Assembly (NCBI GenBank): GCA_030425505.1
Contig: JAUIAB010000001.1
Span: 124,001-188,000 of the forward strand
From: Bacteroidia bacterium
Lineage (GTDB): Bacteria; Bacteroidota; Bacteroidia; Cytophagales; Flammeovirgaceae
DNA length: 64,000 nucleotides
Direction: 5' to 3'
Positions 2,039 through 55,947 of this stretch are shown one piece after another (positions within the stretch are counted from its first letter, which is position 1; the number at the start of each line of letters is the position of its first letter). A program made the translations under genes and the position numbers. Below the pieces are notes generated by a model. It saw only the letters and a list, made by a program, of their open reading frames with translations, did no database searches and was not told the DNA's origin.

Positions 2039-4057
2039 GTTTTTATTTTCTCTAAGACTCTCCAACTCAAACATTTCGTCACGAAGCCTTGCTGCTTCAA
2101 CAAAGTTCATATCTTTTGCCGCCTTTTCCATTTTATTTTTAGTTTCTTGAATAAGTTTTTCTAAATCTTGTGTTGGTACATAGTCTGCTAAAATATCCGC
2201 TGCTTTATTTTTCTTTGGAGTGATGTTATATTCTTTAACATCTTTTTTAGCGTCCGCAACTTTTGTTTGTTGTATTACCGCTTCTTTTGATTTAACAATA
2301 GTTGTTGGAGTGATATTATGTTTCTGATTGTATTCTATTTGAATAAATCTTCTCCTACTGGTTTCATCTATTGCTGCCTGCATAGATTTAGTAACTGTAT
2401 CAGCATACATTATCACCCTTCCTTCAGAGTTTCTTGCTGCTCTACCTATCGTCTGTATAAGAGATCGATGATTACGCAAAAACCCTTCTTTATCTGCATC
2501 CATAATAGCTACCAGCGCTACTTCAGGTAGGTCTAACCCTTCTCTCAAAAGGTTAACTCCAACTAGTACATCAAATATTCCTAACCGTAACTCTCTTAAA
2601 ATTTCAACTCTATCAAGCGTTTTAACTTCAGAATGAATATATCTTGTCTTTATATTAATATTTTTCAAATAGGTGGACAGCTCCTCAGCCATTCGTTTAG
2701 TAAGAGTAGTTACTAAAACTCTAAACCCTCTTTTGATAGTATCATCTATCTCATTTAGCAAGTCATCAATTTGGTTTAGGCTGGGTTTAACCTCAATTCT
2801 TGGGTCAAGCAGACCTGTAGGTCTAATTACCTGTTCAACTATTGAGCCTTCTGTTTTTTGTAGTTCATAATCTCCAGGTGTAGCACTTACATAAATTACC
2901 TGGTTTAGCATACCTTCAAACTCGTTGAATGTAAGTGGTCGGTTGTCCAATGCAGAAGGCAGTCTAAACCCATAATCAACTAAAGAGGTTTTTCTTGAGC
3001 GGTCTCCTCCCCACATTGCTCGTATCTGGGGTGTAGTTACATGGCTTTCGTCTATTACCATCAGATAGTCTTCTGGAAAATAGTCTAACAGGCAGAAAGG
3101 TCTCTCCCCTACCTGTCTTCTATCAAAATACCTAGAGTAATTCTCTACACCGGAGCAATAGCCAAGCTCTCGCATCATCTCCAAATCGAACTCAGTACGC
3201 TCTTTTAACCTTTTTGCTTCTAAAAACCTTTGCTCTTCTTCAAAAGTTTTTATCTGGATTACCAGGTCATCCTGTATTTCTTTTATAGCTTGATGAAGTA
3301 CATCTTTACCTGTGACGAATAGGTTAGCAGGAAATATGGTTATAGCACTTTCATTAGAGATTTTTTTACCTAAAATAGGGTCAATCCTATGAATGTCTTC
3401 TACCTCATCTCCCCAGAAATAAATCCTATAGGCAAAGTCAGCATAAGCTGGGAAAATATCTAGTGTATCTCCTTTTACTCTAAAATTTCCTCTTTTGAGC
3501 TCTACCTCTGTTCTACTGTACAGTATATCTACTAGGTCAAAGAGAAGCTGATTTCTAGGCCTTTCTTCTCCCTTACTAACCCTAACAATATTTTTACCAA
3601 ACTCTGTTGGGTTTCCGATACCGTAAATGCAAGATACTGAGGCAACTACTACCACATCTCTTCTTCCTGTAAGAAGGGAGGAAGTTGCAGCAAGCCTTAA
3701 CTTTTCAATTTCTTCGTTGATCGAAAGATCTTTTTCGATATATGTATCAGATGTGGAGAGATATGCTTCAGGTTGGTAGTAATCGTAATACGAAATAAAA
3801 TATTCAACAGCATTTTCAGGAAAAAACTGTTTAAACTCTCCATAAAGTTGTGCCGCCAGAGTTTTATTATGGCTTAAAATTAATGCGGGTTTATTAACTT
3901 CCTTGATAACATTTGCTATTGTAAATGTTTTACCTGTTCCAGTTGCTCCCAGCAATACTTGAGAAGGCTCATTATTATTGACCCCTTCTACCAATTGCTT
4001 AATTGCCTTTGGTTGATCTCCAAAAGGAGAAAAGGGAGATTCGAGTTTAAATTCCAT
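2036..4057 (-). CDS. uvrB: UvrABC excinuclease subunit B
   Basis: DNA-damage recognition and helicase subunit of nucleotide excision repair; with UvrA it loads onto damaged DNA and recruits UvrC. 673 aa, full length. Walker A GATGTGKT is at residues 37-44. The beta-hairpin region YYDYYQPEAYL follows at about 90-100. The DEAD-type helicase motif appears as VIDESHVTTPQ, helicase C-terminal motifs include QTIGRAARN, and the C-terminal UVR motif for UvrC contact is at about 630-670. The stop codon TGA overlaps the edge of repeat copy 1. It is divergent from the efflux operon, across a 159-bp gap. Confidence 0.97.
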   Translation of the reverse strand: MEFKLESPFSPFGDQPKAIKQLVEGVNNNEPSQVLLGATGTGKTFTIANVIKEVNKPALILSHNKTLAAQLYGEFKQFFPENAVEYFISYYDYYQPEAYLSTSDTYIEKDLSINEEIEKLRLAATSSLLTGRRDVVVVASVSCIYGIGNPTEFGKNIVRVSKGEERPRNQLLFDLVDILYSRTEVELKRGNFRVKGDTLDIFPAYADFAYRIYFWGDEVEDIHRIDPILGKKISNESAITIFPANLFVTGKDVLHQAIKEIQDDLVIQIKTFEEEQRFLEAKRLKERTEFDLEMMRELGYCSGVENYSRYFDRRQVGERPFCLLDYFPEDYLMVIDESHVTTPQIRAMWGGDRSRKTSLVDYGFRLPSALDNRPLTFNEFEGMLNQVIYVSATPGDYELQKTEGSIVEQVIRPTGLLDPRIEVKPSLNQIDDLLNEIDDTIKRGFRVLVTTLTKRMAEELSTYLKNINIKTRYIHSEVKTLDRVEILRELRLGIFDVLVGVNLLREGLDLPEVALVAIMDADKEGFLRNHRSLIQTIGRAARNSEGRVIMYADTVTKSMQAAIDETSRRRFIQIEYNQKHNITPTTIVKSKEAVIQQTKVADAKKDVKEYNITPKKNKAADILADYVPTQDLEKLIQETKNKMEKAAKDMNFVEAARLRDEMFELESLRENKN

Positions 4058-38831: not shown

Positions 38832-39785
38832 TTACTGGTTGTGAAGAGTATTATTAGCTATATCAGACCACTCCCAATTATATTCTTCTGCCAGCAATAA
38901 ACCTCCCCTACAGTTAATAATCAAATGGTTTTCAAATCTTTCAACTATTTCACCATATTCTGATTTCGGGTATTTAAGTCTAGTATCAAAGATACGGCTT
39001 TTCCATATTCGTATTTTTTTGTCTTTTATTTTTCCAAAAGCACCAGGATAGGGTTTTGTAGTGGCTCTTATTAGGTTATGTATTTCGTATACATCTTTTT
39101 CCTCCCAGTTTATTTCACCATCGTTTTCTGTTCGTTTATCAAAGTACGAAGGAATTCCACTTTGAGGAATTACATTATAGTCTCCTGAAATTATATTTGG
39201 AAGGTTTTTTACTACTAGGTCTCTGTTAGTAATAGAGTATTTGTAATAAAGGGTTTGAATGTCATCGTATTCATTAATATCAAATTCAATATAGTCTATT
39301 ATATCACCATCATCAATACCTGGTTTTATAAGAAAAAGAGACATTATAAATCTTTTTTTACCTAAAACTAAGGACCAGTTCATTGGACTTCTTCCCCTTC
39401 CTTTAGGTAAAAAGTCGGGGCTGCCATGAAACCCAAGTGCCCCATGTTTTAGTTGATTGATTAGGCATTCGGGAAAAAGCCGTTGCCACCCTCCCTGAAC
39501 TAGTACATCAAATTTATTAGTGTTAAAAAACTCGTAGTCTTTCTGACCTGTTAAACTATATTTTTCAGGAATATAAATAGGGATATTCTCTCTTTTTGCA
39601 ATTTCTTGATAATCATAATACCCTGATACATTATATTTTTTTGCTTGTTGAGAGTTAAGGCACACAAAGTAAGAGAATTTGTACCCTAATTCTATTAGCT
39701 TGTTTATTACTGAAACCCCTCCAATATGGCATCCACACATTAAAAGTTTTGTATCAGGTAATTTGGAATTTTCTTTTCTTTCCAT
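38832..39785 (-). CDS. Formyltransferase-like sugar enzyme A
   Basis: 317 aa, formyltransferase fold as in Fmt and ArnA. The core is LGFHGSPDFLPKGRGRSPMNW (residues 117-137, broken here only for description) with a downstream IDDGDII acid. The Asn of the N-x-H catalytic motif of classical Fmt is Gly here (G118-F119-H120). The C-terminal part contains GEINWEEKDVYEIHNLIRATTKPYPGAF, the family's second domain. The likely role is N-formylation of an amino sugar with 10-formyl-THF. Its start overlaps the deacetylase-like gene by 32 bp; an ATG at 39740 is an alternative start. Confidence 0.78.
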   Translation of the reverse strand: MERKENSKLPDTKLLMCGCHIGGVSVINKLIELGYKFSYFVCLNSQQAKKYNVSGYYDYQEIAKRENIPIYIPEKYSLTGQKDYEFFNTNKFDVLVQGGWQRLFPECLINQLKHGALGFHGSPDFLPKGRGRSPMNWSLVLGKKRFIMSLFLIKPGIDDGDIIDYIEFDINEYDDIQTLYYKYSITNRDLVVKNLPNIISGDYNVIPQSGIPSYFDKRTENDGEINWEEKDVYEIHNLIRATTKPYPGAFGKIKDKKIRIWKSRIFDTRLKYPKSEYGEIVERFENHLIINCRGGLLLAEEYNWEWSDIANNTLHNQ

Positions 39786-45210: not shown

Positions 45211-45972
45211 TTAAGCGTCCCTAATATTATCAATTTCTTTTTGAGGATAGTTAATTAACACTCCCATTCCTTGTTTTTGAAAAACAACCATGCTACCTAC
45301 ACCAGCTGCTTGTACACCTTTTATAGAAAAGACATTTCTAATATCTTCAATACTGCCACAACCTCCGTTAGCTATTATTGGAACACTAACAACATCATTT
45401 ATCTCCTTTATCAAGTCTAAATCATAACCTTTCCATGTTCCATCTTTATCTATTGAGGTGATAAGTATTTCTCCTACACCTTCTTGCTCAAGTTTTTTAG
45501 CTAAGTCTAACGCTGTTATATCAGTATGGACTTTGCCTGAATTTGTATGAACTACTTTTTTACCAAACCAATTGCTTTTGATGTCTATTGATCCTATGAT
45601 GCTCTGACTACCAAAGTAACTGCTTATTTTAGCAATTAATCCAGGTTGTGCTAATGAAGATGTATTTATAACTACTTTTTCAAATCCCATATTAAGAATA
45701 CTCTTCACCTGTTCGAAGCTTTTAATACCACCCCCATAAGACAAAGGCATAAATGACTCCTCTGCAATTTCCTTTAAAACTTTATAGTTTGGTTCTCTAT
45801 TTTCATTAGTTGCAGTAATATCTAAAAAACATAACTCATCAACTTCTAGCTCATTGAAGATTTTTACCGTGTTTGCTGGATCTCCAACATATTGAAACTT
45901 ATTAAACTTTATTGTTTTTACAAGTGTTGAGTCTTTTAATAATAAGGTTGGTATTACTCGTTTAAGTGCCAT
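45211..45972 (-). CDS. hisF2: HisF-like cyclase subunit of a glycan amidotransferase (HisF2/WbuZ type)
   Basis: 253-aa TIM barrel related to imidazole glycerol phosphate synthase HisF, with GGGIKS, GSIDIK and ITSIDKDGTWKGYD motifs. The catalytic Asp11 of genuine HisF (in CLDVKDG) is Leu11 here (IPTLLLKDS). This is the pattern of HisF2/WbuZ proteins that work with HisH2 to supply ammonia to WbpG-type sugar amidotransferases, not in histidine synthesis. Its ATG shares one base with the HisH stop (TAATG). Confidence 0.85.
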   Translation of the reverse strand: MALKRVIPTLLLKDSTLVKTIKFNKFQYVGDPANTVKIFNELEVDELCFLDITATNENREPNYKVLKEIAEESFMPLSYGGGIKSFEQVKSILNMGFEKVVINTSSLAQPGLIAKISSYFGSQSIIGSIDIKSNWFGKKVVHTNSGKVHTDITALDLAKKLEQEGVGEILITSIDKDGTWKGYDLDLIKEINDVVSVPIIANGGCGSIEDIRNVFSIKGVQAAGVGSMVVFQKQGMGVLINYPQKEIDNIRDA

Positions 45973-46580
45973 TATATTTTTGCAAAATTCTGAAATAGTT
46001 GCATACCAAATTTGTGGCTTTTTTCTGGATGGAACTGAAAACCATATATATTTTCCTTTGCGACAGCACAGTCAAACTCATAACCATACTTTGCAACAAG
46101 TAATTTATTGTTTTCATTTTTAACTTTAGCATGATAAGAATGAACAAAATAAAACTTAAAGTTTTCAAAGTTCTTAATTATAGAATTACTTTGTTTCTCA
46201 AAAACAAAGTTCCAACCCATATGTGGGATTTTCAACTCAGTATTTTCTTTAAATTTAAATTTATAGCAAGACCCCTCAATCCAGCCTAACCCTTTTTCAG
46301 TACCTTCTTCACTAGACTCTAGTAATAATTGCATACCTAAACAGACACCCATTATAGGGATTTTATCTTCTAATGCTTTCTTATTAAGAGTTTTAATTAA
46401 ATCTAGTTCTTTAAGTCTCCGCATGGCAGTATCATAAGCACCGACCCCTGGCAAAATTATTTTTTTAGCTTTTAATATTTTAGTTTCACTACTAGTTACT
46501 TCGCTTTTGACACCTATACGCTTTAGCATATTTTTTATTGACCCTAAATTACCCAAACCATAATCAATTATAGTAATCAT
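45972..46580 (-). CDS. hisH2: HisH-like glutaminase subunit of a glycan amidotransferase
   Basis: 202-aa class I glutamine amidotransferase. The nucleophile is C80 in GVCLGMQLL; the His-Glu pair is in FQFHPEKSHKFG near the C-terminus. PGVGAYDTAM forms the oxyanion region. It hydrolyses glutamine and passes ammonia to the HisF-like partner. Together with the adjacent WbpG-like gene this matches the O-antigen wbpG-hisH2-hisF2 set. Confidence 0.88.
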   Translation of the reverse strand: MITIIDYGLGNLGSIKNMLKRIGVKSEVTSSETKILKAKKIILPGVGAYDTAMRRLKELDLIKTLNKKALEDKIPIMGVCLGMQLLLESSEEGTEKGLGWIEGSCYKFKFKENTELKIPHMGWNFVFEKQSNSIIKNFENFKFYFVHSYHAKVKNENNKLLVAKYGYEFDCAVAKENIYGFQFHPEKSHKFGMQLFQNFAKI

Positions 46581-46585
46581 TAGAG

Positions 46586-47734
46586 TTAGCGTTTAGAAGT
46601 GTACTTTAAATAAAAACTCATAGGAACTAAATTAGCCTTAGCTAAAAAGTAAAACAATGGTTTTAACTTTTCAAACCTCTTTTTATAAGTTGGAAACTCC
46701 CACCAAAACTTTGGAGACTCAGTCATTTTATCTTCAAATTCTTTATCTGTCAACTCCAGCCTTTTTTTAAAGTATTCAATAAACTCAGGCTCTATATTTA
46801 TTGGTTCATTATATCTTTTCCAAGCTTCTTCCCTAGAGATTTTGTTTAGTCTGACCAATGCTGCAAGTGTGTTGTTTCTTAAATCCGCATTAAATTTTCG
46901 TGGATTATAAACTTGGTGATAAAATGCTGTCATTCTATTTTCTAAATGATGTCCACCGTAATATTTCCAACCACATTCTTTTTTTAAAAATTCTTGAGCC
47001 TCTTCTTTAGAGTAATTTATATACCAAAAAGGTCTAATTTTTTTTATACGATAAAATAAAATCCACTTCATAAATTGCCAAAATGTCATCAAGGGGTATG
47101 ATTTCATCTTCCTAGAACCAAAGTACTGGTGTATTTTTTTTATGTATTTACCATCAAAATAGTTTTTCCCAAGGGGTGTAATACCTTCAGTAATAAATGA
47201 ATGTCCTTCTAGTACATATTTCACTTTATACTTAGCCGCTGCTCTATACATTACTTCAGCTAGCGCTAAATCTGTAGCTGCTTCTATTTCTGCTACACCT
47301 GCTTTAAAGAAACTTTTAAATATGTCATCAGATTCTTTATTATCGATTACATGGGTATATAAGTCTAAGTTCCAGTGTTGTAAAACCTTTCTAATATTTT
47401 CAGAAGCAATAGCTGTATTCCAAGTATTATCATAGTGAACAGCAAGTGGTCGTAGCCCTTTCTGTATAGCCCAATAAACCATATAAGATGAATCTGTTCC
47501 ACCACTTACCCCCACTATACAATCGTATTTTTTTCCTTTTCCTTTCTTTTTAATTTTTCCTATAATGTCATTTATTTTTTTTTCTCCTTTTTCTTTACCT
47601 GTCCCATACTCTTCTATTAAACCATCAATTTGGTGGCAATAATTGCATACACCATTTTCATCAAAGGTTATTGAAGGTACTCTCTCATCATAGATGCATC
47701 TAGTGCATATTTTTAAGTTTGTATCCAATGCCAT
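46586..47734 (-). CDS. wbpG: N-acetyl sugar amidotransferase (WbpG-like)
   Basis: ATP-dependent PP-loop enzyme thought to convert the carboxylate or an acyl group of an N-acetylated uronic acid to an amide or amidine. I start at 47734 (MALDTN); an ATG at 47767 would overlap the upstream gene by 32 bp. Two CXXC pairs (C10-C13, C30-C33) suggest a zinc site. The PP-loop SGGTDS is at 77-82, then YVLEGHSFITEG. Glutaminase and channel genes lie directly downstream. Confidence 0.88.
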   Translation of the reverse strand: MALDTNLKICTRCIYDERVPSITFDENGVCNYCHQIDGLIEEYGTGKEKGEKKINDIIGKIKKKGKGKKYDCIVGVSGGTDSSYMVYWAIQKGLRPLAVHYDNTWNTAIASENIRKVLQHWNLDLYTHVIDNKESDDIFKSFFKAGVAEIEAATDLALAEVMYRAAAKYKVKYVLEGHSFITEGITPLGKNYFDGKYIKKIHQYFGSRKMKSYPLMTFWQFMKWILFYRIKKIRPFWYINYSKEEAQEFLKKECGWKYYGGHHLENRMTAFYHQVYNPRKFNADLRNNTLAALVRLNKISREEAWKRYNEPINIEPEFIEYFKKRLELTDKEFEDKMTESPKFWWEFPTYKKRFEKLKPLFYFLAKANLVPMSFYLKYTSKR

Positions 47735-47735
47735 T

Positions 47736-48539
47736 TTACTTTTTCCTTTCAATACGCACTTTTTCAAATATCATTCGACACCCATTATCTAACTCAATAA
47801 AAGCTCCAGGATAAGGATAAGATTGTGCTCGAATAAAATCATAAATTTTTTTCTTATCCCATGTTAAATCAACCTTACCATCTTCTGGAGATCGCTGGTC
47901 ATAAATCTGTATTTCTTCTTTTTTTTGCTTTAAAAAAGTAATTGACGAAATATTTGTTAAAGCATTAATTAACATTTTAGAAGATTCGCTAGTTATCTTT
48001 TTGTACAACTCATCTATTGTATCTGTATCCTCAATCAAAACTGTTTTTTGCGAAATAATATCTCCATCATCTACTCCATCATCCAACCTAAATAAAGTAG
48101 TACCTGTTTTGTCCTCACCATTGATCATTGCCCAAACTAAAGGGGCTCCTCCAGCATATTTAGGTAAAAGGGAAGCGTGAATCCCCCAAGCTCCCATTTT
48201 CGCAAGTTTTCTAATGGATTCTGGAATCATATAATACCATCCCATTACCAAAATCACATCAGGGTCATATTTCTCTATTTCTTCTTTAAACGAAGTTATT
48301 TTTTTATTTAAGCTATGATCTATTTCAAAATAATCTATACCCTCAACGTCTGCTATTTGTTTCATATTGGCATAGGTATAATTTTTAACAGCTTCTTTTG
48401 AGTAGTTGATGTCAAACTCTTGTGGAATTGAAAAAATTGCTTTAACATCTACAGTTTCTTGCGAAGTATTAAGGATGTCTAGTAATATTTTTTTACTAAA
48501 ATTAGTACACCCAAGATATATAACTTTTAATTTATCCAC
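47736..48539 (-). CDS. Formyltransferase-like sugar enzyme B, GTG start
   Basis: 267 aa, starting at GTG (48537-48539). Formyltransferase core: GIHASLLPKYAGGAPLVWAM (119-138) and VDDGDII (156-162). As in enzyme A, the Asn of the N-x-H motif is Gly119 while His121 is kept. A small C-terminal domain (GKVDLTWDKKKIYDFIRAQSYPYPGAF) is present. The GTG lies inside the TGTGGATAA that ends the asparagine-synthase relic, suggesting the two were once translationally coupled. Confidence 0.8.
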   Translation of the reverse strand: MDKLKVIYLGCTNFSKKILLDILNTSQETVDVKAIFSIPQEFDINYSKEAVKNYTYANMKQIADVEGIDYFEIDHSLNKKITSFKEEIEKYDPDVILVMGWYYMIPESIRKLAKMGAWGIHASLLPKYAGGAPLVWAMINGEDKTGTTLFRLDDGVDDGDIISQKTVLIEDTDTIDELYKKITSESSKMLINALTNISSITFLKQKKEEIQIYDQRSPEDGKVDLTWDKKKIYDFIRAQSYPYPGAFIELDNGCRMIFEKVRIERKK

Positions 48540-48621
48540 AGTTCTCAGCTTTTAAAAAGATGTGATACCTCTGTTCAAAATTCATAAATGACCAAATCAG
48601 CAATCAATGATTTATTGATAT
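48532..48621 (-). pseudogene. Relic of a second asparagine-synthase 3' end
   Basis: On the minus strand this stretch still encodes NH-stop-LLIWSFMNFEQRYHIFLKAENCG-stop. The intact gene just upstream encodes NHRLLIWSFMNFEWWCKLFLNGQ near its end. The two share 24 identical bases (48574-48597 and 48667-48690). A CGA-to-TGA change explains the in-frame stop. The final TAA overlaps the GTG start of the formyltransferase-like gene. This looks like the tail of an older asnB-like gene left when the present gene replaced it. Confidence 0.7.
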
Positions 48622-50514
48622 TCATTCTACAATCCTTTGACCATTCAAAAATAACTTACACCACCATTCAAAATTCATAAATGACCAAATTAACAATCGA
48701 TGGTTAATATGTTTATTAATATGCTCATCTATAATATTTTCAACAAATGATTTATTTATAAACTCATAAGAAAGTGCATTTTTGTCGAGAAGAAGCTCTT
48801 TAATATAATTAGCATTTTCCCCTCTATACCAAGATTCATCAGGTGCTGAAAAACCTTGCTTTTTGCGATTGATAATCGACTCAGGTATAAAATCTTGCAT
48901 TGCTTTTCTCAAGACATTTTTTCCGTCTCTATATTCAGCATATAATTTCTTTTTACCTCCGAATTGATTTTCATCAATTCGTTTCATTTTTTCAAGATTA
49001 GCTAATTTATGTTTTACAGGAATTTTTTGTGCAAAATTGACAAGGTCATTATCCAAAAAAGGGAATCTTTCTTCCAATCCATTAGCCATAGATAGCTTAT
49101 CTCCTACTAATAGAAGTCCTGGCAAAAATGTCTTAATCTCAAAGTATAATGAATTATTTATATGCTGTTCCGGCGTATCATAGCCTAATTTTTTATTGAA
49201 TAAAAATACATTTTCAAAAATCTTTCTAGGTTTATTATAGTCATCAACTTGCACTGCTGAAGTAAATAGTTTTCGCTTTTCTTCATCCGTTACTAATCGC
49301 TGCCAAAATCCGTAATACTGATCAAAAAACTGATTTCTATTCAAAGAGTCATGTACTCTATAATATCGCCAGGGATAGCCTCCATAAAGCTCATCTCCTC
49401 CCGTTCCCTGCAAACAAACTTTTACAAACTTGGAAGCTAACCTAGATATGTAATAATTGGGATAGCTCATTCCCACACGTAAATCTTCCAAATGATATAC
49501 AACTCTTGGCAGTGACCACTTTAAGTCACCAGCATTCATGATTTGCTCATAATGCTCCGTTTTAAAATAGTTAGCCATTAATTCTGCATCCTTTCGTTCA
49601 TCATAGTTAGCTTCAACACCTGTAACTTCTGACATATCAAAGCCACATGTAAATGTGGTTAACCGATCAACTTGTGTAGATGCCACAGCTGTTATAGAAC
49701 CTGAATCCATTCCTCCTGATAAATACGACCCAACAGGCACATCTGCCACCATTTGCCTAACTACAGCTTGTTTAAAAAGGCGCTCTGTTTCTTCTTTTGC
49801 GTCCTCAAAACTCATTGACTCATCTGTTTTTGTAAAATCATAATCCCACCAGGAGTTATGTTTAACATAAGTGCTAGAAGCATCCACCCTAACAGTGTTA
49901 GCAGGTGGTAACATAGTTACTCCTTTAAATAAAGTATGGTATGCAAATAAGTTCTGAAAAGTAAAATATTCATTTAAAGCCTCATGATCCAACTCTACTT
50001 TAAAATCTGGATGCTTTTGCATGGCTTTAATTTCTGAAGAAAAAATTAAGGTTTTTCCATTGAACCAATAGTAAATAGGCTTTACTCCAAACCGATCTCT
50101 GGATAAGTACAGTGCTTTTTCCTTTTTATTCCATGCTCCTATGGCAAACATACCATTCAATCTTTCTAAAAAAGAAGTTCCATACTCTGCTAGCCCTTCG
50201 ACTATTACTTCTGTATCTGTCGTAGAGTAAAATTCATGCCCTCTTGATTTTAACTCTTGTTTAAGCTCTAAATAATTATAAATACAACCATTAAAAACCA
50301 ACACCCAGTTTCCATCTTTAGAGGTCATAGGCTGTGTTCCTCTAGCAGACGTATCTAATATGGATAATCTTTTATGTGCTAAAGCAATATTGTCTTTCAC
50401 ATAATATCCTTCACCATCAGGACCTCTATGTGCTATGCGTGCAGCCATTTTTTTCAATCTGTCTTCAGAAAAAGGCTGCCCATCAATATTAAAAACACCT
50501 AAAATCCCACACAT
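48622..50514 (-). CDS. asnB: Asparagine synthase-like glutamine amidotransferase (AsnB/WbpS type)
   Basis: 630 aa. The N-terminal class II glutaminase has nucleophile Cys2 (MCGILGVF), RIAHRGPDGEG and LVFNGCIYNY. The synthetase domain has PP-loop SGGMDS (266-271), GTGGDELYGGYPW and FPFLDNDLV. Asparagine synthesis is the textbook activity. In O-antigen loci, members of this family (WbpS-like) instead amidate uronic acids, and the operon context favours that here. A fragment of a homologous 3' end lies immediately downstream. Confidence 0.9.
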   Translation of the reverse strand: MCGILGVFNIDGQPFSEDRLKKMAARIAHRGPDGEGYYVKDNIALAHKRLSILDTSARGTQPMTSKDGNWVLVFNGCIYNYLELKQELKSRGHEFYSTTDTEVIVEGLAEYGTSFLERLNGMFAIGAWNKKEKALYLSRDRFGVKPIYYWFNGKTLIFSSEIKAMQKHPDFKVELDHEALNEYFTFQNLFAYHTLFKGVTMLPPANTVRVDASSTYVKHNSWWDYDFTKTDESMSFEDAKEETERLFKQAVVRQMVADVPVGSYLSGGMDSGSITAVASTQVDRLTTFTCGFDMSEVTGVEANYDERKDAELMANYFKTEHYEQIMNAGDLKWSLPRVVYHLEDLRVGMSYPNYYISRLASKFVKVCLQGTGGDELYGGYPWRYYRVHDSLNRNQFFDQYYGFWQRLVTDEEKRKLFTSAVQVDDYNKPRKIFENVFLFNKKLGYDTPEQHINNSLYFEIKTFLPGLLLVGDKLSMANGLEERFPFLDNDLVNFAQKIPVKHKLANLEKMKRIDENQFGGKKKLYAEYRDGKNVLRKAMQDFIPESIINRKKQGFSAPDESWYRGENANYIKELLLDKNALSYEFINKSFVENIIDEHINKHINHRLLIWSFMNFEWWCKLFLNGQRIVE

Positions 50515-50517
50515 AGA

Positions 50518-51660
50518 CTATAAACTTTTTAATATATTCACTACGTATTCATAATCTTCAGGAGACATTCTATTATGCAAAGGAATTGCCATTGAATAAT
50601 TATTAGCCGCTTTAGCTCCTGGAAAATCATTTTCATCAACTTTCATAAGGTCTTTATAGTAATTAAGCATATGAACAGCATGAGTTCCTGGTCTTGTTGA
50701 AATTCCAGCTTCCTGAAGCTTTTCCATTATTTCATTCCTCGTACCTGGTGATTTGGATTCATCTACAAAAGTTACGAACGATTGCCAGCCATGCTTATAC
50801 CCTTCTTCTACTTTAGGTGTTAACAACCAATCTATTCCTGCCAACTCTTTGATATAAAAATCTGCCCAGTTTTGTCTTTCAGATATAAAATGATCTAGTT
50901 TTTTTATCTGTACTACTCCTACAGCCCCTTGTAAATCTGTCATTCTATAGTTGTACCCTACCATATTGAAATCTGGTAAAATATACGGCTTAGGCCCATG
51001 ATGCCGTTGTTCCTCCGACACCGAAGCTCCATGATTCCTTAACATTGATAATTTTTCTGCTATCCCATCATCATTGGTTGTTAGCATCCCTCCTTCTCCC
51101 GTTGTAATAGATTTCCTGGGATGGAAGGAAAAACAACCTATATCACCAAGATTGCCTGCATATTTTCCTTTATACATTGCTCCAGCTGCACAAGCACCAT
51201 CCTCAACTATAGGAATATTAGGTGCTATAGCCTTTATCGCATCTATATCAGCGCACAAACCAAACAAATGCACTGGAATTATAGCTTTCGTCTTTGAAGT
51301 GATTTTAGTTTCAAGGTCTAAAACATCTAAATTAAACGTGGCTGTATCTATGTCTACAAATACAACCCTAGCTCCACAGTATAATACAATATTAGCAGTA
51401 GACACCCATGTAAATGCAGGAACGATTACTTCATCTCCTTTACCCACACCTAAAGCAACTAATGCTAAATGGAGTGCTGTGGTAGCACTGGTAACTGCTA
51501 TTGCATGTTTAACACCATGTTTTTCTGCAAACAACTGCTCAAACTCTCTGACTTTTGGTCCTGCAGTAATCCAACCTGTCATTAAAGGCTCTTTTACCGC
51601 CTGCCATTCTTCTTCTCCTGTAACAGGTAAAGAAATCGGGATGTTTCTTTTTTCAGACAT
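50518..51660 (-). CDS. DegT/DnrJ/EryC1/StrS sugar aminotransferase
   Basis: PLP-dependent nucleotide-sugar aminotransferase, 380 aa. VTSATTALHLAL binds the cofactor phosphate, VEDGACAAGAMYKG is typical, and the PLP lysine is K183 in FSFHPRKSITTGEGG. It would convert a keto-sugar (3- or 4-keto) to an amino sugar. The 4-keto-6-deoxyglucose from rmlA/rmlB is one possible substrate. It is 5 bp after the epimerase gene and 3 bp before asnB. Confidence 0.9.
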   Translation of the reverse strand: MSEKRNIPISLPVTGEEEWQAVKEPLMTGWITAGPKVREFEQLFAEKHGVKHAIAVTSATTALHLALVALGVGKGDEVIVPAFTWVSTANIVLYCGARVVFVDIDTATFNLDVLDLETKITSKTKAIIPVHLFGLCADIDAIKAIAPNIPIVEDGACAAGAMYKGKYAGNLGDIGCFSFHPRKSITTGEGGMLTTNDDGIAEKLSMLRNHGASVSEEQRHHGPKPYILPDFNMVGYNYRMTDLQGAVGVVQIKKLDHFISERQNWADFYIKELAGIDWLLTPKVEEGYKHGWQSFVTFVDESKSPGTRNEIMEKLQEAGISTRPGTHAVHMLNYYKDLMKVDENDFPGAKAANNYSMAIPLHNRMSPEDYEYVVNILKSL

Positions 51661-51665
51661 ATAGT

Positions 51666-52658
51666 TTACACAGTTAAAGGAGCTTTATCTAATCCAGTAG
51701 CTATTCTCCAATCTATTAACTTTTGAAGTCCCTCTTCTAAGGAATATTTATATAAAAAACCTAACTCCTCTTCTGCTTTTTTTCTAGATCCTATTCTATT
51801 TTGCACCAATGCTCTAGCGTCGTCTTCACTATAAGGGTTGTATTTTACTTTTAAATCAGACTGCTTAAGTTCTAGAATTTTATCGCACAGTTCTTTAATA
51901 GATGTTTGTACTTCTGTTCCTACATTATAAAACCCATGTTCTACATCTGATTTTAGTGCTTGTACATTACATCTAGCAACATCTTCTACATATATGAAAT
52001 CATATGCTTGAGATCCATCTCCATTAATTACTGGAGACTCATTAGCTTCAATTTTATTTAGCATTATTGGAACTACACCTGTGTATGCTGCCGTTTGATC
52101 CTGATGAGGACCATAAACATTCATGTATCTTAAACCTATAACTGGCAGTCCGTATCTATCATTGAAAGCTGTACACATAGCTTCTCCAGCTATTTTGCTT
52201 GCTCCGTAGAAGTTTTTATTATTAAAAGGGTGTCCTTCCGTCATTGGCAGCTCTATTGCATCTCCATATACTGATGCAGAAGATGACCAAACTAATTTTT
52301 TAATATTGTTTTTTACACAGGCTTCAAGAATATTAAACGTCCCTGCAATATTTACGTCAAACGCTGTTCTTGGAAAGTCTTTACAATGCAATAACCACAT
52401 AGCTGCTAAGCAAACCACATAATCCATCCCCTCCATTGCCTTATTAAGGATGTCAATTTCTCTAATATCTCCTCCTATAGGAAATAAAGAACATCTAGGG
52501 TCTCTCAAAGAATCTTCCAGGTACTCTTTTTGACCCCTTGCAAAATTGTCATATACTATAACTTTTTCAACTTCTTCTTTTAAAAGTTCTTTGACAACAA
52601 ATGAACCTATAAAGCCAGCACCCCCTATCACAAGAACCTTAGCTCCCTTTAATTCCAT
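51666..52658 (-). CDS. NAD-dependent nucleotide-sugar epimerase
   Basis: Extended SDR, 330 aa. GGAGFIGSFVVKEL, WSSSASVYGDA, and YGASKIAGEAM (YxxxK) are intact, followed by RYMNVYGPHQD. It resembles UDP-GlcNAc/UDP-glucuronate 4-epimerases; exact substrate uncertain. Its position just after WlbA suggests it acts on the same UDP-sugar series. Confidence 0.87.
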   Translation of the reverse strand: MELKGAKVLVIGGAGFIGSFVVKELLKEEVEKVIVYDNFARGQKEYLEDSLRDPRCSLFPIGGDIREIDILNKAMEGMDYVVCLAAMWLLHCKDFPRTAFDVNIAGTFNILEACVKNNIKKLVWSSSASVYGDAIELPMTEGHPFNNKNFYGASKIAGEAMCTAFNDRYGLPVIGLRYMNVYGPHQDQTAAYTGVVPIMLNKIEANESPVINGDGSQAYDFIYVEDVARCNVQALKSDVEHGFYNVGTEVQTSIKELCDKILELKQSDLKVKYNPYSEDDARALVQNRIGSRKKAEEELGFLYKYSLEEGLQKLIDWRIATGLDKAPLTV

Positions 52659-52685
52659 AATTAAAATTACTTTATTGAAAAAAAA

Positions 52686-53582
52686 TTACCTCAATTTACT
52701 TACTATTTCAATCGATTGTTTTGCTTCATTACAACCAAAGCCATTACCCAAAAGTATTTGTTTATAACTTTCGGTATGAAGATCTGTAAACCCAGCACTA
52801 AACTCTATTTGTTTGCCGTCAACCGTTATTGAACGAAAAGTTCTTTGACCTTCCTTTTTAATATTGCCAGGTAAATCTTCACTATTAATACTTAAGAACC
52901 ACTTTACATTAGCTTTTTCTAGTTTCAAAATCCCAGAAGCTTTATCATGAGTATAGGTATCTTTTTTACTTTCTAATACTTTTCCAAAAACCCAAGTAAG
53001 CATATCAAAAAAGTGAATACCTATGTTTGTAGCTATTCCTCCAGATTTTTCTTCTTCTCCTTTCCAGCTTCTATGATACCAGTGACCTCGAGAGGTAATG
53101 TAGGTCAGATCAATATCATGTGTTACATTGGATTGCTCTTTTTCAACTTGCTCTTTTAGTTTAATTATACTCGGATGCAGTCTCAGCTGAAGAATATTAA
53201 AGATTTTTTTTCCTGTTTCTTTTTCTATTTCGCTTAAAGCATCAACATTCCATGGGTTTAGCACTAGAGGCTTTTCACAAATAGCATGAGCTCCATGTCT
53301 CAGAGCAAACCGAATGTGTGCATCATGCAAATAGTTAGGAGAACATATGCTTACATAGTCTATTTTTTCACCCTTTCTTTTAAGCTTATCTAGGTGGCGA
53401 TCAAACCTTTCAAACTCTGTAAAAAAGTCTGCTTCTGGAAAGTAGCTATCCATTATTCCCACAGAATCAAAAGGGTCAAGAGCTGCAACTAAATTATTGT
53501 TTGTTTCTTTTATAGCTTTTAAGTGCCTTGGAGCTATGTATCCAGCTGCTCCTATCAGTGCAAAGTTTTTTGGTTTTGCCAT
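52686..53582 (-). CDS. wlbA: UDP-N-acetylglucosaminuronate 3-dehydrogenase (WlbA/WbpB-like, Gfo/Idh/MocA family)
   Basis: 298 aa from the ATG at 53582 (MAKPKNFALIGAAGYIAPRH); an ATG at 53603 would run into the Uma2 gene. The GAAGYIAPRHLKAIK start is characteristic of WlbA. DYVSICSPNYLHDAH and the catalytic lysine in CEKPLVLNP follow. WlbA oxidises C3 of UDP-GlcNAcA to a 3-keto sugar, the substrate for the WlbC-type aminotransferase further upstream. It is separated from WlbB/WlbC by the Uma2-family gene. Confidence 0.9.
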   Translation of the reverse strand: MAKPKNFALIGAAGYIAPRHLKAIKETNNNLVAALDPFDSVGIMDSYFPEADFFTEFERFDRHLDKLKRKGEKIDYVSICSPNYLHDAHIRFALRHGAHAICEKPLVLNPWNVDALSEIEKETGKKIFNILQLRLHPSIIKLKEQVEKEQSNVTHDIDLTYITSRGHWYHRSWKGEEEKSGGIATNIGIHFFDMLTWVFGKVLESKKDTYTHDKASGILKLEKANVKWFLSINSEDLPGNIKKEGQRTFRSITVDGKQIEFSAGFTDLHTESYKQILLGNGFGCNEAKQSIEIVSKLR

Positions 53583-53586
53583 TATA

Positions 53587-54186
53587 TTATTTCCAATCAT
53601 CAAAAACTTCTCCTAAATTAATCTCTAAATCAGGAAATATAGAAGATTGGATTACTTCTTCTTTCCCTTTCAGTTTATCAGACGCGTATTTTCCTTTGTT
53701 ATTCAACATATATTTCAAAACGGTTCCATTTGTTGGGTCTACAATCCAGTATTCTTTTACTTCATTTTCTTCATAAAGTTGGTATTTATCGTTAACGTCT
53801 TTTGCACTGGTAGAAGGAGAAAGTATTTCTACAACTAAATCTGGAGCTCCGTGGCAACCTTTCTCATCTAATTTTGACAAATCACAAATTACACAAAGGT
53901 CTGGTTGTACTACTGTCTCAGTTTTTTTATCATCTAGTGATTTGCTTAATCGCACATCAAAAGGCGCGGAAAATGCTTTACACGAATGCTTTTTAAAGTA
54001 GTTGTAAAACTCTCCCGTCAAAATAACAGAAATTTCTTGATGCTTAGTAGAAGGCGCTGGCGTCATTTTGAATATCTTGCCCTTAATCAGCTCCACACTT
54101 TCTTGAAATCTCCATAGCAAGTAGTCTGCATAGGTATATCGTTTATCGAGATCTAACTGTGATATGTCTGTGATATTAGTACTCAT
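53587..54186 (-). CDS. Uma2-family (DUF820) PD-(D/E)XK protein
   Basis: 199 aa. Family features: YADYLLWRFQESVELIKGKIFKMTPAPSTKHQ at the start, VVQPDLCVI and GAPDLVVEILSPSTSAKDVNDKYQLYEENEVKEYWIVDP, which carries the PD...E..S.K nuclease-like core. Family members are putative endonucleases of unknown role and are often mobile or scattered. It lies on the operon strand, only 4 bp before wlbA and 17 bp after wlbB, so it is an insertion into an otherwise canonical set. Confidence 0.85.
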   Translation of the reverse strand: MSTNITDISQLDLDKRYTYADYLLWRFQESVELIKGKIFKMTPAPSTKHQEISVILTGEFYNYFKKHSCKAFSAPFDVRLSKSLDDKKTETVVQPDLCVICDLSKLDEKGCHGAPDLVVEILSPSTSAKDVNDKYQLYEENEVKEYWIVDPTNGTVLKYMLNNKGKYASDKLKGKEEVIQSSIFPDLEINLGEVFDDWK

Positions 54187-54203
54187 TTTTTATAGTAGAG
54201 AGC

Positions 54204-54797
54204 TTAACCTACCTTCTCAACAAATATATGTTTTGAATCATTAACTAATTTATACTTTTCTCCACTTTCTTCACATACAGCCTCATTGCTTTCATCAAAG
54301 TTAAGTCGATGACCGAACTCACTCATCCACCCTATTCTTTTTGCCGGGTTGCCCACGTAAAGAGCATAAGGAAGCACTTCTTTGGTTATAACAGCTCCAG
54401 CCCCAATAAACGCAAACTTTCCAATATTGTTGCCGCAAACTATTGTAGCATTAGCTCCTATGCTCGCTCCTTTTCCTACATGTGTTTTTGCATATTGACC
54501 TCTTCTGTTTACAGCACTTCGAGGGTTAATAATATTAGTAAAAACCATAGAAGGTCCCAGAAAAACATCATCGTCACAAGTTACTCCTGTGTAGATAGAA
54601 ACGTTATTTTGGACTTTTACATTTTTTCCCAAAATAACTTCTGGAGAAACAACTACATTTTGACCTATATTACAGTTTTCTCCAATAGAGCAGTTGGACA
54701 TAATGTGAGAGAAGTGCCATATTTTAGTTCCTTTTCCAATTTTTGCTCCTTCATCAATAACAGCGGTTTCATGAGCAAAATATTCCTGATCTGACAT
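54204..54797 (-). CDS. wlbB: UDP-3-amino-sugar N-acetyltransferase (WlbB/WbpD-like)
   Basis: 197-aa left-handed beta-helix acyltransferase with many hexapeptide repeats ([65 protein letters not shown]). It acetylates the 3-amino group of UDP-GlcNAc(3N)A using acetyl-CoA. The neighbours WlbC and WlbA complete the three-step conversion. It is 4 bp after the aminotransferase gene. Confidence 0.92.
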
Positions 54798-54801
54798 GTT
54801 T

Positions 54802-55947
54802 TTAACCTATCGTTTTTTTTACTTTTTCAATTATATACTCTTGTGTTTCTTCTTCCATCTCAGTATGCATGGGAAGAGATATTACCGTCTCTGAAAGCTT
54901 CTCGGAGATAGGAAAGTCACCTTTTTTATATCCATAATTCGAATATCCCTTTTGCAAGTGTAATGGTACTGGATAGTAAATCATACTCGGTATTCCCTCC
55001 TTCGATAACTCGTTTTTAAATGTATCTCTATCTATATTTTTTACCTTCAACGTATATTGATGGAAAACATGTGTAGAGTAGTCTGCTCGATAAGGTATCT
55101 GAAGCTGCTCTACGTCTTTAAAAGCATCATCGTATTTCTCCGCTACTTTGTTTCTTTGTTGGTTATAGTCGTTAAGGTACCTTAGCTTAACTCTTAGTAT
55201 TGCTGCTTGTATAGTATCTAACCTCGAGTTACAACCAATTATATCATGGTAATACTTAGTCTTTTGACCATGGTTTGCCACCATTCTTAGCTTTTCTGCT
55301 AACTGATCATCGTTTATAAATAATGCTCCTCCATCACCATAAGCACCCAGGTTTTTAGAAGGGAAAAAAGAGGTGCAGCCAATTTGTCCGATAGTACCAG
55401 CCTTGCTTTTTTTCCCATCAGAGAAAACATAGTCTGCTCCTATTGCCTGAGCCGTATCTTCTATTACATAGAGGTTATGCTTTTGAGCCAACTTCATTAT
55501 TGATTCCATATCAGCGGACTGTCCATATAAGTGAACAGGAACAATAGCTTTTGTTTTACTGGTAACTTTTTCTTCTAACTGAGTTATGTCAATATTGAAA
55601 GTATTAGGATCAACATCAACAAAAACAGGTGTCAGTTTCAACAAAGCAATTACTTCTGCTGTCGCAACATAAGTATGAACAGGAACTATTACTTCATCTC
55701 CTGGCTCTAGCTCTAATGCCATCATGGCAAGCTGTAAGGCGTCGGTTCCATTAGCACAAGGAATGACATGCTTGCAATTCATATATTGAGCTAGTTCAGC
55801 AGAAAACTTTTTTACCTCACTACCATTAATAAACTGTGTGTTGTTAATTGCTTGGGCAATTGCATTATCTATTTCCTCTTTAATTCTCAAATACTGACTT
55901 TTTAAGTCTACCATTTGTACTTGAGGATTATTACTTTTCTTATTCAC
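54802..55947 (-). CDS. wlbC: UDP-3-keto-sugar aminotransferase (WlbC/WbpE-like)
   Basis: 381-aa DegT/DnrJ/EryC1/StrS aminotransferase. [16 protein letters not shown] is the usual WbpE start. [26 protein letters not shown], and the PLP lysine K198 in [14 protein letters not shown] are present. It aminates the 3-keto product of WlbA using glutamate. It is the first gene of the minus-strand glycan run; the 111-bp gap to the divergent gene at 56059 should hold the promoter, though no TAnnTTTG box is visible there. Confidence 0.92.

Follow-up and report, generated by a model that had tools for sequence, protein, structure and literature searches.

A decayed asparagine-synthase gene end at an operon junction in a surface-glycan cluster of a Flammeovirgaceae bacterium

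Gene content and sequence of the asnB-fmt junction

The window, a 64,000-nucleotide stretch of DNA from a Bacteroidia bacterium of the family Flammeovirgaceae (GenBank assembly GCA_030425505.1, contig JAUIAB010000001.1, positions 124,001 to 188,000), carries on its minus strand a series of genes in the order Gfo/Idh, epimerase, DegT aminotransferase, asnB, fmt, WbuX-like, HisH-like and HisF2-family. A short, damaged sequence, here called the stub, lies at the junction of asnB and fmt. The features are, in the direction of reading:

52686..53603, minus strand: Gfo/Idh-family gene, WbpB-like by context, with a short C-terminus
51666-52658, minus strand: NAD-dependent epimerase, in the upstream block with asnB
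50518-51660, minus strand: DegT aminotransferase, in the upstream block with asnB
48622..50514, minus strand: intact asnB-like gene (630 aa) of the asparagine-synthase family, C-terminus NGQRIVE-stop
48532..48621, minus strand: stub, final ~28 codons of another asnB, with TGA at 48604-48606 and final TAA at 48532-48534
48574..48597, minus strand: 24-nt core of the stub, same bases as 48667-48690 in the intact asnB
47736..48539, minus strand: fmt, formyltransferase-like (PF00551), with its GTG start inside the end of the stub
46586-47767, minus strand: WbuX-like amidotransferase, in the downstream block with fmt
45972-46580, minus strand: HisH-like gene, in the downstream block with fmt
45211-45972, minus strand: AglZ/HisF2-family gene, in the downstream block with fmt; same order in genome G113

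Two formyltransferase-like proteins of the window (47736-48539 and 38832-39785, minus strand) have a glycine two residues before the conserved histidine (GIHASLLP and GFHGSPDFLP, respectively), as have the fmt relatives of G113, G365, G740, and G553. In ArnA-type enzymes, this position is held by the asparagine of an Asn-His-Asp triad.

The intact AsnB scored above the cut-offs of PF00733 and PF13537 and passed the asparagine-synthase model TIGR01536 (437 vs a cut-off of 267); its score for TIGR03108 was below the cut-off (426 vs 817). The WbuX and AglZ/HisF2 models, whose annotations predict sugar amidation and acetamidino modification, were also above cut-off. In Porphyromonas gingivalis, the uronamide form of a Wbp-pathway sugar is described as lost upon deletion of the AsnB-like gene wbpS (PMC7468200). 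Like the window protein, WbpS (PGN_1234) resembles AsnB in that description, and its gene stands in a glycan cluster with sugar-nucleotide genes around it; however, it was assigned to TIGR03108, whereas the window AsnB falls below the cut-off of that model and is likened to WbpS by context (PMC7468200). The product of the window asnB is probably a WbpS-like sugar amidotransferase, a prediction from neighbours that are themselves called Wbp-type by context, and it may act like wbpS in sugar-uronamide formation.

The TGA stop codon of the intact asnB (48622-48624) is separated by 82 bases from the GTG start of fmt (48537-48539), and a repeat of the asnB end spans these 82 bases plus the opening codons of fmt. 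The two repeat copies (48551-48615 and 48644-48708) are 65 nt long and 78% identical, and their offset of 93 nt, exactly 31 codons, keeps them in frame. Local alignment of asnB and stub gave a score of 76. Since this score was never reached in two runs of 2000 first-order Markov shuffles each (maxima 54 and 49), chance is excluded as the source of the likeness. Alignment thus confirmed what the earlier note had read from the bases, a broken asnB 3' end beyond the intact asnB with 24 identical bases and its frame kept. The same note was correct in stating that the stop of the stub overlaps the GTG of the next gene: the final TAA (48532-48534) falls within the opening codons of fmt, which gives an overlap of 8 nt with the fmt start.

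The stub translates as INH*LLIWSFMNFEQRYHIFLKAENCG*. Its internal TGA (48604-48606) stands opposite a CGA at the matching site of the intact asnB. The note had counted this CGA-to-TGA change as the only one in the reading frame; the TGA is real, but there is further damage, as an arginine replaces the second tryptophan of the FE-x-W motif. Consistent with a gene remnant, significant homology extends to part of a gene only, and both an in-frame TGA and the loss of a conserved tryptophan inactivate the sequence.

Comparison of the stub with asnB homologues

Of 389 other genomes of the order, 14 had a strong AsnB homologue (E <= 1e-100), as had 27 of 394 others of the class (E <= 1e-200), which makes 40 different genomes in all. 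At E <= 1e-100, the 17 other genomes of the family had none. This distribution indicated that asnB is patchily spread. Partial matches (G160, G571, and G489) were omitted from tail analyses, leaving 37 homologues; G501, with a stop within its match, was also omitted from the tree, which contained 36 others and the window AsnB.

The asnB tails are well conserved, with RLLIW in 34 of 37 homologues, FE-x-WC in 36 and FE-x-W in all 37. At the second tryptophan of FE-x-W, which is an arginine in the stub, every homologue has tryptophan. Accordingly, two bases of the stub are matched in 0 of 37 homologues each, namely the T that creates the internal stop and the A behind the change from Trp to Arg. 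Over the 60 nt compared, stub and intact gene differ at 13 sites; the base commoner among the 37 homologues is in the intact gene at nine of these and in the stub at three, with one tie. Decay of the stub explains this excess, but a decayed duplicate explains it equally well. Among the three sites at which the stub has the commoner base is the isoleucine of RIFL (22 of 37 homologues, vs 10 with the state of the intact gene). Behind the FL of this motif, the stub has glutamate (24 of 37 homologues) and the intact gene glutamine (5 of 37).

Stub and intact gene agree at 47 of 60 nt, where homologues of different genomes agree at a median of 44 (range 28-55, 666 pairs). Because exact runs of at least 24 nt also occur in 23 of these 666 pairs, the 24-nt run is not in itself evidence of recent shared ancestry. 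In a search of 380 genomes of the order with the stub, the matches below E = 0.003 were tails of this asnB family, found in 13 other genomes (best E 7e-6, 68% identity) and in the window's own intact asnB, and the next match of any kind had an E of 0.04. The WWC codons of the stub are unlike those of nearly every homologue, and its core equals that of the intact asnB, a mix that is poorly predicted by either clean allele divergence or neutral decay.

Behind FL, the ends of the stub and the intact asnB are unlike in length and in every codon despite the identical core. The C-terminus of the intact gene (NGQRIVE-stop) has the same length as that of its G572 sister (NGEKIRD-stop) and looks complete. 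As the number of residues behind FL ranges from 0 to 10 among homologues, tail length is a weak argument for separate origins. Judged from these sequences, the intact asnB is probably a different gene from the parent of the stub.

In the AsnB tree, the window protein groups with those of G572, G630, G303, G102, and G327 (support 96/93), none of which is among the four AsnBs recognised as encoded next to fmt. These four need four changes on the tree, against a mean of 3.9 for shuffled labels. The nearest AsnB found (G572, 78% identity) is from outside the order; the best within the order is 75% identical. Among 21 chosen genomes, the epimerase and the DegT aminotransferase of the upstream block had their nearest kin within the order; asnB is in no clear conflict with this block. 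In a check of the intact AsnB for chimerism, the nearest rows were L055 and L056 for columns 1-450 vs L058 and L059 for columns 450-600; since neither tree had a starred set holding the window, no chimera is claimed.

A phylogeny of the asnB tail versus the relic, as suggested in the earlier note, was run as a placement of 72 nt of the stub on the AsnB tree. The position as sister to the intact gene was 1.39 log units below the best place and was not rejected (AU 0.54). Positions beside three of the four fmt-adjacent AsnBs were 5.4-6.8 units worse (AU 0.039, 0.014, and 0.068), and that beside the fourth was 2.9 units worse (AU 0.235).

Downstream junctions and further stubs in relatives

At least four of the 37 asnB homologues directly precede a relative of the window fmt. 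Three of these have overlapping ends (4 nt in G740, 4 nt in G553, and 1 nt in G365), while G113 has a 54-nt gap instead. For the 33 tails not called fmt-adjacent, inspection by eye of about 100 to 200 nt showed no fmt directly downstream, as did lists of open reading frames for G062, G682, G102, G572, and G630. Among 389 other genomes of the order, fmt was listed in G113, G365, and G075 only (E <= 1e-35); a search of genome contigs with fmt yielded one distant Chloroflexi locus. Together with the overlap of the stub's stop with fmt, the fmt-adjacent asnBs indicated that the stub is most likely the tail of an asnB that once preceded fmt.

Genes behind closely related asnBs differed in two genera. 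Of two sister AsnBs in one genus (support 100/100), that of G113 is followed by fmt-wbuX-hisH-hisF and that of G062 by a 700-nt gap and a methyltransferase-like gene. In another sister pair from one genus (100/100), G740 has fmt and G682 a methyltransferase-like gene at this place, these two names having been given by eye. Exchange of the flanking block thus occurs among relatives, and the genes behind the end of asnB can change while asnB itself is retained.

The intact tail was also searched against 38 genomes (that of the window and 37 others). This search returned two further fragments within 20 kb of an asnB and on its strand, in G417 and G572. The G417 fragment was rejected as a stub, as it consists of PP-loop codons of an amidotransferase-like gene in another reading frame. 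The G572 fragment (L101, about 3955-4055, minus strand) is a decayed asnB tail located 1.2 kb 3' of the intact gene, with a DNA score of 83 against a shuffle maximum of 42, and it overlaps the start of the next long open reading frame, spermidine-synthase-like by eye. A comparable stub was therefore present in 1 of 37 other genomes. Window and G572 stubs scored 33 against each other, a score reached by 17 of 2000 shuffles; they are not clearly alike, so that a shared history is not required.

Ungapped repeats around 36 asnB loci included no second asnB tail, in a search that was insensitive, since the G572 stub, which has deletions, was missed as well. No second tail match at E <= 1e-4 occurred in any of the 37 other genomes, so no pair of asnBs of this subfamily was seen. 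In G470, two asnB-family 5' ends were found on the plus strand (L131, 3813-5702 and from 9549), the second of which (MCGIAGIYNLNN) lies 5.7 kb further on, measured from start to start, and runs off the fetched stretch. Two asnB-family genes can thus share one cluster.

Origin of the stub and order of events

The stub is probably a recombination scar that joins two blocks of the surface-glycan cluster. The upstream block (epimerase, DegT aminotransferase, and asnB) would end in the intact asnB, and the downstream block (fmt-wbuX-hisH-hisF) would once have had its own asnB directly ahead, with a stop that overlapped the fmt start. The joint would have fallen just 3' of the intact asnB stop and, in the other asnB, within the final ~30 codons, leaving only the tail of that gene, which would now be decaying. 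We infer the recombination and its type, possibly homology-facilitated illegitimate recombination, from the homology, frame and decay observed in the stub, the asnB-fmt junction of relatives and the differing genes behind sister asnBs. The arrangement that would have preceded the joining was seen in no relative.

The main rival to a joining of two blocks is an in-frame tandem duplication, by slippage, of the last 93 nt of asnB, after which the freed copy decayed. It would account for a distance between copies of exactly 31 codons, for the identical 24-nt core, for the location of most differences on the side of the stub (9 of 13 sites) and for the 72-nt placement beside the intact gene, which was not rejected. 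However, the intact tail ends like that of its G572 sister, the ends behind FL share neither length nor any codon despite the identical core, and at a few positions the stub, unlike the intact copy, still has a state common in the family, which together make such a duplication unlikely. Deletion within a cluster that had two complete asnB genes before fmt, with removal of all but the tail of the second, would lead to the same end product; the G572 stub 1.2 kb behind its asnB and the second asnB-like 5' end in G470, 5.7 kb after the first one's start, are in keeping with it. This course of events is nevertheless improbable, as none of the 37 other genomes had a second tail match at E <= 1e-4 and recombination between tandem copies usually leaves one chimera, without a stub.

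It is very improbable that the stub is an artefact, created where sequences of two strains were wrongly joined during assembly, or a functional spacer for coupling or regulation. The genome is a draft of 41 contigs, but a mis-join at the shared 24-mer would yield one recombinant gene rather than the succession of stop, decayed tail and operon overlap that is seen. For a functional spacer speaks the position of the repeat at an operon junction, and against it the loss of the stub's reading frame and of a tryptophan kept in 37 of 37 homologues.

Recombination scars comparable to that proposed for the window have been described. In Vibrio cholerae, an incoming module replaces a type VI secretion system (T6SS) effector gene and pushes the old 3' part downstream, for which homology-facilitated illegitimate recombination was proposed and rhs genes were cited as a parallel (PMC5361080). 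As far as that account goes, both systems would share a replaced gene with a displaced 3' part, but the V. cholerae remains are immunity genes and shifted effector 3' ends, whereas the window has one decayed enzyme tail of 30 codons, beside which either block may be the later arrival (PMC5361080). In Salmonella O-antigen clusters, wzy and H-repeat remnants are reported to mark past changes and joints (PMC3715488). These resemble the stub in lying at joints of surface-glycan clusters; they differ in gene and phylum, and in that their history is documented by serogroups, whereas the window represents one genome of its genus (PMC3715488). Remnants in glycan clusters are therefore already known (PMC3715488), and the asnB stub appears to be a new example of such a scar: among the matches listed, titles and abstract beginnings of the literature on glycan clusters and amidotransferases contained no report of one.

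If block exchange is the correct reading, the stub pins down its exact breakpoint within this surface-glycan cluster and points to a conserved gene end as a site for the joining of glycan blocks. A wider hypothesis, speculative at this stage, is that crossovers recur at the asnB 3' end in surface-glycan clusters of Bacteroidota, where the conserved NHRLLIWS-FE-x-WC codons would serve as a homology anchor for exchange of downstream blocks and the window and G572 stubs would be by-products. If true across many genomes, asnB stubs could reveal the order of past cassette exchanges. The window stub alone is one small scar, an ordinary trace of glycan-cluster reshuffling.

Both orders of events, arrival of a new asnB in place of an old one or of a new downstream block that carried an asnB stub with it, fit the junction, with only a slight lean towards the downstream block as the later arrival. 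The allele-replacement history put forward in the earlier note held insofar as the 3' end of an asnB homologue lies on the fmt start, an arrangement that whole asnBs have in at least 4 of 37 relatives; its view of the intact asnB as the newcomer did not follow. Exchange within genera downstream of a constant asnB weakly favours a late downstream block. Within the order (21 chosen genomes), best identities were 87% for the epimerase and 77% for the DegT aminotransferase, and against their counterparts in the syntenic G113 identities were 52-58% for fmt, HisH and HisF and 66% for WbuX, a contrast between blocks that says little about polarity, as family rates differ. Serotype-type switching, as named in the earlier note, would show as strains of one species with differing glycan types and corresponding loci; the 17 other genomes of the family were from genera other than that of the window. 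No mobile element was seen by eye in the bases read at both ends of the block.

Base composition was rejected as a signal of import. A change in composition across the joint, which the earlier note had listed among its checks, was absent from GC3 (fmt 0.231, asnB 0.257). Gene by gene, GC3 varied from 0.217 to 0.301 across 41-56 kb; within asnB it wandered from 0.181 to 0.324, with lower values in the 3' third. Total GC rises upstream of 49000, mostly at codon positions 1 and 2.

The only hint that the asnB is the newer part comes from the Gfo/Idh gene, which ends 27 nt before the epimerase. Of 19 other genomes searched, 10 had homologues of its product; the window protein is 18-28 residues shorter at the C-terminus than these 10, all of which run on into a G(D/E/N)YHP stretch beyond its end. 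This short end is possibly a second scar, at the edge of the epimerase-DegT-asnB block. An exchange that left damage at each end of the block would account for it, but a small deletion does so equally well.

The gene order of the window over 45211-55947 is kept in G113 (L103), from another family of the order, with 52-86% protein identity. Common to both are DegT-2, acyltransferase, Gfo/Idh, epimerase, DegT, asnB, fmt, wbuX, hisH, and hisF. The exception to the order kept from DegT-2 and the acyltransferase through hisF is a Uma2-family (PF05685) gene (53587-54186, minus strand), which is absent from the syntenic G113 cluster; in the window it is flanked by the acyltransferase and Gfo/Idh genes, and its overlap with the listed Gfo/Idh start is 17 nt.
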